A stretch of DNA of 64,000 nt, taken from NCBI RefSeq assembly GCF_003597675.1, contig NZ_CP030827.1:2728001-2792000 (forward strand), given 5' to 3'. Positions 42,120 through 46,739 of this stretch are shown in pieces. The stretch comes from Neorhizobium sp. NCHU2750. Its GTDB lineage: Bacteria; Pseudomonadota; Alphaproteobacteria; Rhizobiales; Rhizobiaceae. The number at the start of each line of letters is the position of its first letter. Positions within the stretch are counted from its first letter, which is position 1. A program made the position numbers and the translations under genes. The notes beneath the pieces were generated by a model, which was not told where the DNA came from, made no database searches, and saw only the letters and a program-made list of their open reading frames with translations.

Positions 42120-42394
42120 TTAGAGCCTTTCCTGGTTAAATTGAAGCGCTCTGCCGGAGCAGGTTTTCGACAGGGCAAAGGCGATTGGCGACGGGCATAC
42201 CCTACGGTACGTCCGAGCCGATCGCGTTTGATCCTGGCGGAAAGATGCCCGGCCCTTCGGGTTGGCTGAAGCGGGCCGCCTGATCGACCGGCCGGCTTGG
42301 CCGTAAGCTTTGGCTACGACGCGCGCCGGCCGGTCGACCATGCGACTCCGCTTGAGCCAACAGAGCGTTTCAATTTAACCAGGAAAGGCTCTAA
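42120..42394. repeat. MITE-like element with 34-bp terminal inverted repeats
   Basis: The 34-bp ends (42120-42153 and 42361-42394) are inverted copies with one mismatch, each starting TTAGAGCCTTTCCTGG on its own strand. The 275-bp interior holds a second imperfect inverted pair around CCGGCCGGTCGA (near 42280 and 42325) and no transposase. An open frame of 73 codons on the minus strand is not convincing as a gene. The terminal TTA bases could be a target duplication. The right end supplies the stop codon of the Nudix gene. Confidence 0.75.
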
Positions 42395-42911
42395 GATCGA
42401 GATCGCCATCTCGCTGGACGACATGGCGGGGCGTGGCCGGCAGATCCTCGATCTCCTCGGCAATGAAATAGGGCGGGATGTCGAGTGCCCGCAGGGCCTT
42501 CGTCGTCGCCGGCACCCATTTGAACTCGAGATCATGGGTATCGACGACCCGGTGGACTATATCGGTCGGATGGAAGGGAAAACTCTCCGGCAGTTCCATG
42601 CGATAGTAGAAGCCCAGTTCGTGCCAGTCCTCGCCCTCGTAGTGGAAGAAATTCTCCACTACCCACAGGAGCGGACCGATCCCGGCCGTCACGCCGAGTT
42701 CCTCGACCATCTCTCGCGCCAGCGTTTCTTCCGACGTCTCGCCCACTTCCGCCCGCCCGCCGGGAAAGGTCCAGAACGCCTCATGCGTGGCGCGATGGAC
42801 GAGCACATGGTCATTTCGGAAGGCAAGTCCCGCAATCCGCATCTGGAAGATGCGCTTCGGCTTGAACTTCATGCGGATACGCAGGTCCTGCGGCACGGTC
42901 TTCTCACTCAT
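42375..42911 (-). CDS. Nudix hydrolase
   Basis: 178 residues with an intact Nudix box, [20 protein letters not shown] then ELG (pattern G-x5-E-x7-REVxEExG), so a nucleoside-diphosphate-linked substrate is hydrolysed; which one is unknown. ATG at 42911 lies inside the end of ruvB (ATGAGTGA, 8-bp overlap), placing it at the end of the ruv operon. The last few residues (LRAFPG) and the stop are encoded by the terminal repeat of the MITE-like element, so the natural C-terminus was probably replaced. The Nudix core is complete, so activity is likely kept. Confidence 0.9.
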
Positions 42912-43944
42912 CGTCAAGGTTCATGCGGAACTGCGCCGCCTCCATTTCCTTCGGCGGCTGCAGGCCGAGATGTTTCCAGGCGATCGCAGTCAGCACCCGC
43001 CCGCGCGGCGTGCGCTGGATGAAACCTTGCTGGATCATGTAGGGCTCGATAATATCCTCGATCGCATCGCGCGGCTCCGACAGTCCCGCCGCGATCGTCT
43101 CGATGCCGACCGGTCCGCCGGCGAAATTCACCGCGATCATGTTGAGGTAACGCTTGTCGAGCTGGTCGAAGCCGGCATGGTCGACATTGAGGCGTGTCAG
43201 CGCCTCGTCGGCAATCTCCTTCGTCACCGTCTCCGCCCGCGCCACCTCGGCGAAATCGCGCACCCGGCGCAGCAGGCGGCCGGCGATACGCGGCGTGCCA
43301 CGCGCCCGCCTTGCAATCTCGCGGGCACCATCATCGCTCATATTGAGGCCCATCAGCCGCGCCCCGCGCCGTACGATGCCCTCAAGCTCCTCCACCGTAT
43401 AGAAGGAGAGCCGGACCGGAATGCCGAAACGGTCGCGCAGCGGCGTGGTCAGAAGCCCGATACGGGTCGTTGCCGCAACGAGGGTGAATTTCGACAGATC
43501 GATCTTCACCGACCGCGCCGCCGGCCCCTCGCCGATGATCAGGTCGAGCTGGAAATCCTCCATCGCCGGATAGAGGATTTCTTCGACAGCCGGATTGAGC
43601 CGGTGGATTTCATCGATGAACAGCACGTCGCGTTCTTCGAGATTGGTGAGGAGTGCGGCGAGATCCCCCGCCTTGGCGATGACCGGACCGGAGGTCGAGC
43701 GGAAATTGACGCCGAGTTCCTTCGCCATGATCTGCGCCAGCGTCGTCTTGCCGAGCCCCGGCGGCCCGACGAAAAGCACGTGGTCGAGCGCTTCGCCACG
43801 GTTCTTCGCCGCCTCGATGAAGATCTTCAGATTGGCCCGCGCCTCAGCCTGGCCGGTAAATTCGTCGAGCGACTGCGGCCTGAGCGCCGTATCGATATCC
43901 TCGCCACGCTTTTCCGGCGAGATGAGGCGGGTTTCATCGGTCAT
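42904..43944 (-). CDS. ruvB: Holliday junction branch-migration ATPase RuvB
   Basis: 346 residues, AAA+ motor that drives branch migration with RuvA. It has the N-terminal [20 protein letters not shown], Walker [10 protein letters not shown], Walker [18 protein letters not shown], sensor 1 [11 protein letters not shown] and a C-terminal winged helix ([17 protein letters not shown]). Its ATG at 43944 overlaps the stop of the upstream VapC-type toxin gene by 4 bp (ATGA), so ruvB translation is coupled to a toxin gene rather than to ruvA. Nudix follows by an 8-bp overlap. Confidence 0.98.
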
Positions 43945-44336
43945 GCGAGAAGTTCCATTCCGGGTATTCTTCGGGCTGCTGCCTTATCGAATGTAACAGT
44001 ATGCCCGCAACCGGCGCGTCGCGCCGCCCAGGCGATAAGATAATCGGGCAGATCGCCGGCGACATCGCCCTGGCTGAACAGCGCATCAAGTTCCTCTGTA
44101 TGCTCGACCAGCAAACAGTCTGCGGCGAGCAGATCCTGCAATACCTGAACGATGGTCGCCATGGGATATCTCATCCGCCTGTTGAGCACCCACACCGTTT
44201 CCGCCAGAACCACCGCACTGATATAGGCAGGGCTGTCGGCCGACCGTTCGCTGAGAAAGCGCCGGGCTGCCTCGCTTTGCTCGGATTGCTCATCAACAAG
44301 AAAGCGGACCAGGACATTGGTATCGATGCCGATCAC
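43941..44336 (-). CDS. VapC-family PIN toxin between ruvA and ruvB
   Basis: 131 residues, complete PIN domain. All four acidic residues are present: D5 ([13 protein letters not shown]), E46 ([10 protein letters not shown]), D98 ([11 protein letters not shown]) and D117 ([10 protein letters not shown]). An active RNase, usually cutting tRNA or rRNA, is expected. Its start overlaps the antitoxin stop by 4 bp and its stop overlaps ruvB by 4 bp. The pair sits between ruvA and ruvB, which are normally contiguous. Nothing suggests decay. Confidence 0.93.
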
Positions 44337-44617
44337 CCGTCCCGCTCCGTCGGTTCACCCATGATGCGTGCATCATCATCCGCCGCTGCCTGCCCGATGG
44401 CATCGCGCATCTCTTCAACGGTCAGGTTTTCACCGGTCGGCGGCTTGCCGAGAATGCCGGCAAAATCCATCAGCTTCTTGTTCCTCGGGATCGCCACGAC
44501 CTGACCATCGCGCGCGGCGACATAAAAACGTGTACCGGGCAGCAGTTGCAATTCATCGCGAACGTCGCTGGGGATCGTGATCTGCCCCTTGGAGGTCATG
44601 GTGGTAAACGAGCCCAT
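44333..44617 (-). CDS. AbrB/SpoVT-family antitoxin (VapB type) between ruvA and ruvB
   Basis: 94 residues. The N-terminal swapped-hairpin DNA-binding domain reads MTSKGQITIPSDVRDELQLL, then PGTRFYVAARDGQVVAIPRN. A C-terminal tail with TVEEMRDAIGQAAADDDARI would wrap the toxin. ATG at 44617 follows GAGG; an internal ATG at 44599 opens the core domain. Two TCTTAC half-sites sit at 44619-44624 and 44638-44643 on the plus strand, consistent with autorepression. The gene begins 60 bp after the ruvA stop. Confidence 0.92.
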   Translation of the reverse strand: MGSFTTMTSKGQITIPSDVRDELQLLPGTRFYVAARDGQVVAIPRNKKLMDFAGILGKPPTGENLTVEEMRDAIGQAAADDDARIMGEPTERDG

Positions 44618-44618
44618 T

Positions 44619-44643
44619 TCTTACCTCGACAAATTTTTCTTAC
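44619..44643 (-). promoter_or_regulatory. Direct GTAAGA half-sites upstream of the first antitoxin gene
   Basis: On the minus strand GTAAGA occurs at 44643-44638 and again at 44624-44619, 19 bp apart, immediately before the antitoxin ATG. The same hexamer forms a palindrome in front of the second antitoxin gene (45994-46010), suggesting related operator recognition. Confidence 0.45.
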
Positions 44644-44677
44644 ATTTCTATATCAGTATTCCGCGAAGGAACCAATC

Positions 44678-45292
44678 TTACCGAGCCAGTTCCTTCAGTC
44701 CCAGTCGGATCAGCTTGGCGCTGTCAGCCCCTTCGCCTGCCGTCTTCATCGCTGCAGCCACGGCATTGGCGGCCTGGTCGCGCGAATAGCCGAGATTGGT
44801 CAGCGCCGAGACCGCATCGGAGACCGGCGCGGAGGCGACCCCTTCGCCGAGTTCCTGCTTGAGCCCGATATTGGCAGACGCCTCGCCCGCAAAGGCCGGC
44901 GCCTTGTTCTTCAGTTCGGTAACGATGCGCACGGCAACCTTCGGCCCGACCCCTTGCGCCCGCGAAACGGCCGTCTTGTCCTGCAGCGCGATCGCATTCG
45001 CGAGTTCCGATGGCGTCAGCGTCGAAAGCACCGCCAGCGCCACCTTTGAGCCCACGCCCTGCACGCTCTGCAAAAGGTTGAACCACTCACGCTCCAGCGC
45101 CGAGACGAAGCCGAACAGCTTCAACTGGTCCTCGCGCACATAGGTCTCGATGAACAGCACCACCGCTTCGCCGACATTGAGCCGCGACAGCGTACGCGAC
45201 GAGCAGAATGCCTCGTAACAGACGCCATGCACGTCGACCAATGCATAGTCGTCGCCGATCTCGTCGATAGTGCCCTTGAGCTTGCCGATCAT
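44678..45292 (-). CDS. ruvA: Holliday junction DNA-binding protein RuvA
   Basis: 204 residues; tetramer that holds the four-way junction and loads RuvB. It has N-terminal OB fold [20 protein letters not shown], helix-hairpin-helix regions [20 protein letters not shown] and [19 protein letters not shown], and a C-terminal domain III ([20 protein letters not shown]) that contacts RuvB. Its ATG at 45292 overlaps the stop of a second PIN toxin gene by 4 bp. No independent ribosome site is obvious, so expression is probably coupled to the toxin. Confidence 0.98.
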
Positions 45293-45720
45293 GTTTGGTT
45301 TCCTGAAAGAGGATGCGTGTCGGGTGCGATCACATCGATACCCGGAAAATAGCTGCGATAGCCGGATGGGTCACGCGTCAGCAACGTATATCCACGGATC
45401 GTCGCATGCGCGCCAATCAGGAAATCCGGCAATACACGCTCACGCCGTCCGCCGGCGGACCGATACCGGCGAAAGGCATAAGAGGCCGCGAACGCCGCTG
45501 ACCAAGGCAGGTTTTCACGAATGAACTGGTTGCGCGGCAAAAGCGCATCCACGGTTTCAAACCTATCGTATCGATAGGAGAATTCCGAAAAGATGATTTG
45601 ATTGATCACCACGCTGCCGCGCGCCACGGCCGCCAGCAATTGCCGTCGCGACCATTCAAGCCAATGCGGATCGCGCACCGCAAGGTCGACGAGAATATTG
45701 GTGTCGATGAGCGTTACCAT
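45289..45720 (-). CDS. VapC-family PIN toxin between ruvC and ruvA
   Basis: 143 residues. The acidic quartet is present: D6 ([13 protein letters not shown]), E46 ([10 protein letters not shown]), D99 ([12 protein letters not shown]) and D117 ([10 protein letters not shown]). Sequence differs clearly from the other toxin at 43941-44336, so these are two unrelated acquisitions or very old duplicates. ATG at 45720 is 4 nt after the antitoxin stop; its own stop overlaps ruvA by 4 bp. RNase toxin activity is expected from the intact site. Confidence 0.93.
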
Positions 45721-45724
45721 GCCG

Positions 45725-45976
45725 TTATCGATCGCGCGTTATCCGCATCAGCTCATCGGCATCGACAGCCTGGTCGCCGGTCCCGCCCAGTTGATCGAGC
45801 GTGGTGATGAAACGATCAAGCCGCGCACGGTCTGCGTCTGCGGTGGTTCCATTTTTGGGCGTAAGAGTAATCACGCCACCTTCCACGCCGAAGATCACCT
45901 CGCTGTTCGGCCCGATGCCCACCAGCTCGCGAAGATCCCGCGGTATGGTCACCTGCCCTTTGGATGTCACACGCAT
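45725..45976 (-). CDS. AbrB-family antitoxin between ruvC and ruvA
   Basis: 83 residues. An N-terminal AbrB swapped-hairpin (RVTSKGQVTIPRDLRELVGI) precedes an acidic C-terminal tail with LDRFITTLDQLGGTGDQAVD, likely the toxin-binding part. ATG at 45976 follows AAAGGAGAA. A perfect palindrome GTAAGA-AAATA-TCTTAC lies 17 bp upstream, a good autoregulatory operator. The gene starts 69 bp beyond the ruvC stop. Confidence 0.93.
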   Translation of the reverse strand: MRVTSKGQVTIPRDLRELVGIGPNSEVIFGVEGGVITLTPKNGTTADADRARLDRFITTLDQLGGTGDQAVDADELMRITRDR

Positions 45977-45993
45977 GACCTGTTCTCCTTTGA

Positions 45994-46010
45994 GTAAGAA
46001 AATATCTTAC
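45994..46010. promoter_or_regulatory. Palindromic operator of the second toxin-antitoxin pair
   Basis: GTAAGA-AAATA-TCTTAC, a perfect 17-bp palindrome between ruvC and the antitoxin start. It shares its half-site with the direct repeats at 44619-44643 before the other antitoxin gene. Confidence 0.6.
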
Positions 46011-46045
46011 CTTGAGAACAAGTCAAGAACAACGCCACTTGCGGC

Positions 46046-46555
46046 CTATCCCGCCAGAGCCTGCCGCATGCGGTGTCCACCACGATTATGGGCGTGGCAG
46101 ATCGCGATCGCCAGCGCATCGGCCGCGTCATTGCCCTTGAATTCCACTTTCGGCATGAGGATTTTCAGCATCAGGTGGATCTGCTGCTTTTCGCCGTGAC
46201 CGACACCGATCACCGATTTCTTCACGGCGTTCGGCGCGTATTCGGCAACCGGCAGTCCCGCCCGCGCCGGCACCAGCATGACAACGCCGCGCGCCTGACC
46301 GAGCTTCAGCGTCGCGACCGCATCCTTGTTGACGAAAGTCTGCTCGACGGCCGCCTCATCGGGCTTGTAGGCATGCACCACCTCGGCCAGCCCGTCATGC
46401 AGCTGGCAGAGACGCGATGCCAGGTCGAGATCGCCATCGGAGGTCACCGTCCCCGAGGCTACGAACTTCAGACTGTTGCCGATCGTGTCGATGACGCCCC
46501 AGCCGGTGCGGCGCAGTCCCGGATCGATACCGATGATTCGAATGATGTCTGCCAT
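46046..46555 (-). CDS. ruvC: Crossover junction endodeoxyribonuclease RuvC
   Basis: 169 residues; resolves Holliday junctions by symmetric nicking. It has the RNase-H-like start [20 protein letters not shown] with catalytic D11, E71 in VEQTFVNKD, and the D143/D146 pair in [18 protein letters not shown] at 46555 follows AAGGTAGGG. First gene of the ruv operon; ruvA and ruvB are displaced from it by toxin-antitoxin genes. yebC, its usual rhizobial neighbour, lies 4.5 kb away on the same strand after an interposed plus-strand block. Confidence 0.97.
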
Positions 46556-46739
46556 GGCCTACCCTACCTTCATACGCCTTTGAGTGCCATCGAAATATGA
46601 ACAAAACAGAAACATCCACATGCGGATGAGGTTTACCATCTGCTAACCATGACCCGAACCATTTCCGGTCACAATGCAACGCCCAACACCCCTCTGCGTT
46701 GTGTCGATGCTCGAATGATTCGAGAGGGAGGTAGAGGCG

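Follow-up and report, generated by a model that had tools for sequence, protein, structure and literature searches.

The ruvCAB operon of the Rhizobiaceae, a core repair operon, holds two fixed slots for VapBC toxin-antitoxin (TA) modules, one between ruvC and ruvA (site 1) that is probably wired to the SOS response through a LexA box, and one between ruvA and ruvB (site 2) that adjoins the translation start of ruvB. The arrangement came to light in a stretch of 64,000 nucleotides from Neorhizobium sp. NCHU2750 (contig NZ_CP030827.1, positions 2,728,001 to 2,792,000; the window), in which a sequence-only reading had described two such modules interleaved with the ruv genes. The minus-strand order ruvC–vapB1–vapC1–ruvA–vapB2–vapC2–ruvB–nudix is borne out by the open reading frames (ORFs) and by profile matches: Pfam backs every gene assignment at the locus, including that of both antitoxins to the AbrB fold (PF04014; scores in Table 1), and NCBIfam backs the Ruv proteins, while VapC-specific NCBIfam models match the two toxins only under their cut-offs. 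In keeping with VapBC modules, both antitoxin genes lie upstream of and co-directional with their toxin genes, and both toxins are PIN-domain proteins that retain the four acidic residues already reported from the sequence (D6/E46/D99/D117 in T1, the site-1 toxin; D5/E46/D98/D117 in T2, the site-2 toxin). The genes are tightly packed, with 4 bp between vapB1 and vapC1, a 4-bp overlap between the end of vapB2 and the GTG start of vapC2, and TA genes occupying 684 of 753 bp in the first gap and about 680 of 733 bp in the second.

That these insertions are more than the accident of one genome is evident from their recurrence at the same two junctions across dozens of genera. Loci were read in 35 genomes of the same genus, in the best 80 named contigs, in an even sample of the family covering 82 genera (110 of 149 ruvA-bearing genomes) and in 24 genomes from other families of the order; about two-thirds of the 39 family genomes left out are among the most RuvA-divergent, and several of the 39 carry slot toxins. 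The content of the ruvC-ruvA and ruvA-ruvB gaps was called by iterated profile search over their ORFs, and the box and gap counts given below use 217 loci, five of them from other families, that remained after 14 of 231 had been dropped as duplicates. Both gaps are bimodal in length, most being either shorter than 300 bp or close to 700-780 bp, the latter containing a single antitoxin and a single toxin. Among the 35 congeners, site 1 is filled in 22, site 2 in 23, both in 16 and neither in six, one of which has a site-2 remnant. In the family sample, site 1 is filled in 39 of 103 scorable loci (seven were unscorable) and site 2 in 39 of 108 (two unscorable), with something else present in three and six loci, respectively, and both sites filled in 21; for the named contigs, site 1 is filled in 45 of 80 and site 2 in 40 of 80. 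Neorhizobium petrolearium (L080) and N. alkalisoli (L085) are examples of loci with both sites filled. By genus, 33 of the 82 have site 1 filled, 31 have site 2, and 18 have both in one genome. A search of Rhizobiales for AbrB/PIN pairs in these intervals, which the sequence-only reading had proposed, thus found VapBC at one site or the other in 46 of 82 genera, and the interleaving is neither universal nor apparently neutral, as it is patchy and both proteins are under purifying selection. None of 221 toxin and 215 antitoxin matches in the gaps lies on the opposite strand. Occupancy of the two slots is correlated (58 loci with both, 38 and 31 with a single one, 76 with neither; Fisher p ~1e-5, ignoring phylogeny), and at least 43 changes between filled and empty states at site 1 and at least 48 at site 2 are required on a Ruv tree of 203 loci. 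Outside the family, ruvA-ruvB could be read in 19 of the 24 genomes and ruvC-ruvA in 16, with one intact site-2 pair (locus L297) and, downstream of a LexA box, the decayed remains of one site-1 antitoxin (L060).

The two slots are home to different VapC subfamilies. A tree was built from 192 slot toxins and from 10 of the 20 PIN proteins encoded elsewhere in the window's genome, those whose PIN frame was recognized by the profile. It places the 97 site-1 toxins opposite the 95 site-2 toxins without mixing, the branches at the deep split having supports of 0.65 and 0.98. Copying of a single VapBC from slot to slot within the operon is therefore rejected. Two PIN proteins from outside the slots, L012 and L020, nest on the site-1 and site-2 sides, respectively, so that neither slot set is strictly monophyletic. 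Across 151 family genomes, with match positions compared to the ruv loci by eye, 50 of 52 T2-like matches with E<1e-15 have ruvA immediately upstream of them, weaker ones being mostly elsewhere. Of 73 T1-like matches, 49, including the best 20, lie at ruv and the remaining 24 lie elsewhere. Relatives of T1 and T2 on plasmids (127 and 100 records) are all below 60% identity, and the T1-like ones come mostly from alphaproteobacteria, as listed by genus.

The first slot is marked by an exact GTTC-N7-GTTC, reported as the alphaproteobacterial LexA motif (PMC3323433), in front of vapB1. It is present in 96 of 97 filled site-1 loci (the exception is L246), as compared with 0.15 expected from mononucleotide shuffles, and in none of 95 site-2 leaders. 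All 96 boxes lie downstream of the ruvC stop, around the vapB1 leader, and 90 are the identical 15-mer GTTCTTGACTTGTTC; in eight loci the longest ORF called for vapB begins before the box. In the window, the box at 46016-46030 is followed by an inverted repeat at 46010-45994, and the same motif precedes recA and lexA, assigned by family, in the window's genome. Further genes behind the motif, named from their sequences, are presumably a divergent uvrA/ssb pair and two imuA-like genes. The latter (L269 and L270, contigs C5 and C6) have the exact motif 76 and 78 bp upstream.

The box belongs to the site and not to the toxin family: of the 24 T1-type toxins that, sorted by eye, lie outside ruv, 17 were scanned, and none has it in the 420 bp upstream. 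The exact motif also occurs in 18 of 106 empty site-1 gaps, among them L056, L060 and L095 with TA remnants, and outside the family, L060 and L303 have it in the ruvC-ruvA gap, where no intact TA pair is present. In L303 (position 2074, ruvB forward), about 800 bp separate ruvC from ruvA without a VapBC, and the box GTTCTTGACATGTTC lies about 90 bp before ruvA. The out-of-family loci are consistent with the box being an older promoter of ruvAB, and putative LexA sites have been described in the ruvCAB promoters of alphaproteobacteria (PMC3323433). The 110 bp upstream of ruvC contain a second site, with at most one mismatch, in 74 of 92 filled and 89 of 96 empty site-1 loci, as compared with 12 of 193 shuffled sequences. 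The operon may thus come under LexA at two points.

At the second slot it is the junction with ruvB that is held constant. The 4-bp overlaps of toxin stop and ruv start described from the sequence are confirmed as a shared ATGA at 45289-45292 (T1 and ruvA) and 43941-43944 (T2 and ruvB), and at 94 of 101 filled site-2 loci the latter overlap again measures exactly 4 bp (the overlap counts, with 101 occupied loci for site 2 and 106 for site 1, are not deduplicated). The final codons of vapC2 (PGMELLA) contain a GGAA stretch resembling a ribosome-binding site for ruvB, and the end of vapC2 thus appears to double as the ruvB start region. Of the two overlaps from which the sequence-only reading had predicted a coupling of RuvA and RuvB production to toxin genes, this is the conserved one.

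Both modules look functional and under purifying selection, as judged from the retention of catalytic acids and from ratios of nonsynonymous to synonymous substitution (dN/dS) near 0.1. Every one of the 97 site-1 toxins keeps all four PIN acids, and among 94 site-2 toxins the individual acids are retained in 94, 94, 91 and 92. Median dN/dS between close pairs is 0.08 for vapC1 (n=35), 0.09 for vapB1 (n=33), 0.12 for vapC2 (n=25) and 0.13 for vapB2 (n=25). General decay of the toxins is rejected on these grounds. Inverted repeats with arms of at least 5, presumed operators, occur in 81 of 92 site-1 leaders, the observed arm being matched in 1 of 92 when each leader was shuffled once, and the repeat sequence tracks antitoxin type (18 printed per type): a GTAATAC…GTATTAC repeat accompanies TEKGQ antitoxins in 18 of 18 leaders, and a GTAAG…CTTAC repeat accompanies TSKGQ antitoxins in 11 of 18, with five differing and two having none.

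Purifying selection on the modules coexists with replacement of one by another. Where two loci have Ruv proteins of at least 97% identity, their site-1 toxins are either less than 60% identical (32 of 61 pairs) or at least 70% identical (29 pairs), and their site-2 toxins either less than 50% identical (19 of 33 pairs) or at least 60% identical (14 pairs). The slots change independently of one another: L044 and L049 have toxins alike at site 1 (88%) and unlike at site 2 (32%), and for L049 and L146 the values are 47% and 89%. Cassette boundaries are sharp in pairs with differing cassettes. Swapped site-1 pairs have genes at 50% identity, while their 15-bp LexA boxes show no difference at all in 19 of 20 (in the other, the search pattern did not find the box), and in swapped site-2 pairs (n=16) the last 20 nucleotides before ruvB are 97% identical with genes at 47%. 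For L089 and L101, the site-2 gap is 97.3% identical in DNA sequence as compared with 90.5% for ruvA and 89.7% for ruvB, which argues for horizontal exchange of the whole cassette. The cassettes are thus exchanged in place. No recombinase accompanies the inserts, and the gaps of the window leave no room for one (target-site duplications were not searched for), so that homologous recombination in the ruv flanks would be the simplest route of exchange.

Losses have left traces mainly at the second slot. A toxin-tail-like end was found by pattern in 9 of 106 empty site-2 loci, and in the partial site-2 loci L052, L090, L114 and L157 a toxin end runs into ruvB with the 4-bp overlap kept; both fit deletion sparing the ruvB start region. 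Doubled or part-doubled modules were seen in L189, L073 and L220, and genome G070 has two site-1 toxins (C1:69696-70897). Such doubled or half-decayed modules are possible intermediates of cassette replacement. A separate, recurring "empty allele" of about 70 bp is found at site 2 in close relatives of filled loci (L027, L029, L031, L036, L042, L053, L065, L066, L072, L075, L091 and L095), and in it a CGTGTAT-like stretch follows ruvA by about 35 bp; the pattern occurs in 12 of 106 empty and 2 of 95 filled site-2 loci, and the stretch is perhaps a promoter.

Taken together, these features allow a mechanism to be proposed. The first slot would lie between an internal promoter controlled by LexA, with GTTCTTGACTTGTTC holding a -35 element in its N7 spacer, and ruvA, while the second would lie between ruvA and the translation start of ruvB. 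DNA damage would relieve repression by bound LexA, and vapBC1 would be transcribed together with ruvA and ruvB, so that genes for growth arrest and for repair are probably switched on together. VapB1, encoded first, would then repress the promoter again through the inverted repeat adjoining the box, and a transient excess of VapC1, a predicted ribonuclease (RNase), released upon damage, would slow translation during junction repair. VapC2 would be a second module whose final codons also serve as the ruvB start region. Internal deletion would account for the loss of cassettes, and horizontal exchange for their replacement, most simply through homologous recombination in the near-identical ruv flanks, a route by which each slot would keep its own subfamily. 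The sequence-only reading had joined toxin state to repair capacity through translation; its co-directional interleaving holds, but it missed both the LexA box before vapB1 and the exchange in place, which together appear to connect toxin state and repair better than translational coupling would by itself. A more tentative extension, which may well prove wrong, is that the slots form a damage-gated allelic locus, in which selection keeps VapBC types diverse and repair is coupled to a programmable RNase brake that is swapped by DNA recombining at ruv.

A number of observations weigh against the SOS-wired, two-slot interpretation or narrow it. Empty slots are frequent (60 of 103 and 62 of 108 scorable loci of the family sample at sites 1 and 2), and neither module can therefore be required. 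As 88 of 106 loci with an empty site 1 are without the exact box in the gap, ruvAB can do without an internal SOS promoter, and the LexA-like site before ruvC could alone regulate the whole operon. The clean empty site-1 loci that bear a box may never have had a TA pair, and the scar pattern finds a toxin tail in just one of 106 empty site-1 loci. The motif itself is imperfectly specific: GTTCTNNNNNTGTTC has 14 matches in the genome as compared with 4 for a reversed control, and not all are at recognizable SOS genes, some copies adjoining genes not recognized as such or falling inside ORFs. The vapC1/ruvA overlap is not conserved, measuring 4 bp in just 30 of 106 loci, the commonest arrangement being a gap of 12-13 bp (43 of 106), and this unevenness makes coupling to ruvA a variable trait.

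The strongest competitor, itself rather unlikely, is that the modules are selfish tenants, addiction cassettes with no role in repair that are sheltered in a valuable co-directional operon and spread through its conserved flanks, with deletion proposed to be resisted by toxin killing and by polar loss of ruvAB. Patchy occupancy with its many state changes, in-place exchange, strict co-orientation and the mostly alphaproteobacterial T1-like relatives on plasmids all agree with such tenancy. Purifying selection on toxin catalysis fits tenants and modules with a cellular role alike. What tenancy does not predict is the distribution of the box, at 96 of 97 site-1 loci and 0 of 17 T1-type loci outside ruv, unless the tenant exploits an older ruvAB promoter. 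Improbable by comparison is vertical inheritance of one ancestral VapBC per slot with many losses and fast toxin divergence. The strict fidelity of two subfamilies to their slots and the decayed remnants in some empty or partial loci would follow from it, but hosts with near-identical Ruv proteins have toxins that are either close or divergent to saturation, with few intermediates, dN/dS ratios of about 0.1 argue against fast evolution, and the L089/L101 cassette is more alike than its flanks; descent in its purely vertical form is rejected on the first and last of these. That the modules are anti-phage immune systems parked in a core operon, their diversity kept by phages neutralizing common types, is highly improbable, for although saturated diversity between types with purifying selection within them resembles diversifying selection, nothing examined at the loci points to phage (PADLOC was not run) and the LexA box fits damage sensing at least equally well.

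TA pairs within DNA-damage operons are of course not without precedent. The dinB-yafN-yafO-yafP operon of Escherichia coli is SOS-controlled and contains such a pair, although it differs from the ruv slots in TA family and in repair gene and has no second slot. Among the rhizobia, Rhizobium leguminosarum 3841 has an AbrB-type antitoxin and a PIN toxin directly upstream of ruvA (RL3987, vapB; RL3988, vapC; followed by ruvA, RL3989, and ruvB, RL3990), and the consecutive numbering of the last two suggests that site 2 is empty there; the account describes this one site, and the portions bearing on it speak neither of a LexA box or a second slot nor of exchange or a pattern across the family (PMC11406972). 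In insertion sequencing (INSeq) of that strain, vapC, ruvA and ruvB fall into one class, required at every stage, and vapB (RL3987) is classed as attachment-progressive, with few insertion sites flagged (PMC11406972). These classes fit a co-dependence of vapC and ruvAB, but the agreement is equally expected from polar insertions, and the different class of vapB also counts against such use of the data.

Other systems share single elements of the arrangement. In higBA-higX of Caulobacter crescentus, a TA pair that has a perfect LexA site and is autoregulated by its antitoxin is inserted ahead of a conserved gene, placing that gene under SOS control; HigBA is not a VapBC, however, and the insertion is limited to a single lineage and one site, with a transcription factor as the downstream gene (PMC13384398). 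In Vibrionaceae, one or two genes are inserted in ruvCAB with a LexA site before ruvAB, and some members have LexA sites before both ruvC and ruvAB, but the inserted genes are not called TA pairs in the sections concerned and the LexA motif is the gammaproteobacterial one (PMC3323433). The chromosomal VapBC10 of Sinorhizobium meliloti, from the same bacterial family, is a toxic tRNASer-cleaving RNase with its antidote, and differs in that its VapB has a helix-turn-helix domain; ruv is unmentioned in the main text of that report (PMC10945364). A literature search over titles and abstract openings, with most subscription journals outside its reach, showed among the records listed no description of two VapBC slots in ruvCAB or of their link to LexA. 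Thus, VapBC beside ruvA (R. leguminosarum), LexA-controlled TA pairs (Caulobacter) and insertions in ruvCAB (Vibrio) are already known, and the two-slot, SOS-linked pattern appears to be new.

TA modules are often regarded as genes of islands and plasmids, and the role of chromosomal ones is disputed. Here, two subfamilies occupy two fixed points of a core repair operon in dozens of genera, one of them behind an SOS box. With nearly the same Ruv proteins, relatives may have a module, lack it, hold another allele or retain only a scar, which amounts to a natural replicated experiment and makes the question of whether a chromosomal TA module serves the cell or itself directly testable. Moreover, the phenotypes of rhizobial vapC insertions need to be read with ruvAB polarity in mind.

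Table 1. Features of the ruv locus in the window (positions are those of the 64,000-nucleotide stretch)
Feature	Position	Strand	Basis or remark
LexA-box-like site GTTTCTGTTTTGTTC upstream of ruvC	46599..46613	-	1 mismatch to GTTC-N7-GTTC
ruvC	46046..46555	-	PF02075; TIGR00228 above cut-off
Putative LexA (SOS) box GTTCTTGACTTGTTC	46016..46030	-	exact GTTC-N7-GTTC; -35-like TTGACT inside
Inverted repeat GTAAGATATTTTCTTAC	45994..46010	-	probable VapB1 operator
vapB1, AbrB/MazE-fold antitoxin, 83 aa	45725..45976	-	PF04014 43.8 bits (cut-off 24.7); TIGR01439
vapC1 (T1), PIN-domain toxin, 143 aa, site-1 subfamily	45289..45720	-	PF01850 37.7 (cut-off 23.6)
ruvA	44678..45292	-	TIGR00084; start shares 4 bp with vapC1 stop
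vapB2, AbrB/MazE-fold antitoxin, 94 aa	44333..44617	-	PF04014 30.3; TIGR01439
vapC2 (T2), PIN-domain toxin, 131 aa, site-2 subfamily	43941..44336	-	PF01850 51.2
ruvB	42904..43944	-	TIGR00635; start shares 4 bp with vapC2 stop
nudix hydrolase	42375..42917	-	PF00293; overlaps ruvB end; final gene examined in the apparent operon

Several minor results concern the locus and its genome more generally. When the two toxins were compared by sequence with solved structures, neither VapC1 nor VapC2 had a meaningful relative. The window's genome has 22 PIN matches including these two, and a 4-bp overlap of toxin stop with a downstream ORF start was seen in 2 of the 22 loci, both at ruv, a weak comparison as the PIN frame was unrecognized for 10 of the 22. 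A scan of the region for sigma-70 promoters and terminators was at chance level (1 promoter against 1.4 expected, 3 terminators against 3.2 expected); its sole promoter-like match overlaps the LexA box and includes TTGACT. In one congener (L038, genome G016), ruvA and ruvB match in broken frames, perhaps through sequencing error, and the estimate of its site-2 gap is unreliable. In seven loci from other genera (L178, L179, L183, L185, L225, L230 and L061), the space between ruvA and ruvB has a different occupant, an ORF of 145-178 aa that mostly fills the gap; the six of these scanned have no Pfam match, and the ORFs overlap the ruvA stop by 4 bp.

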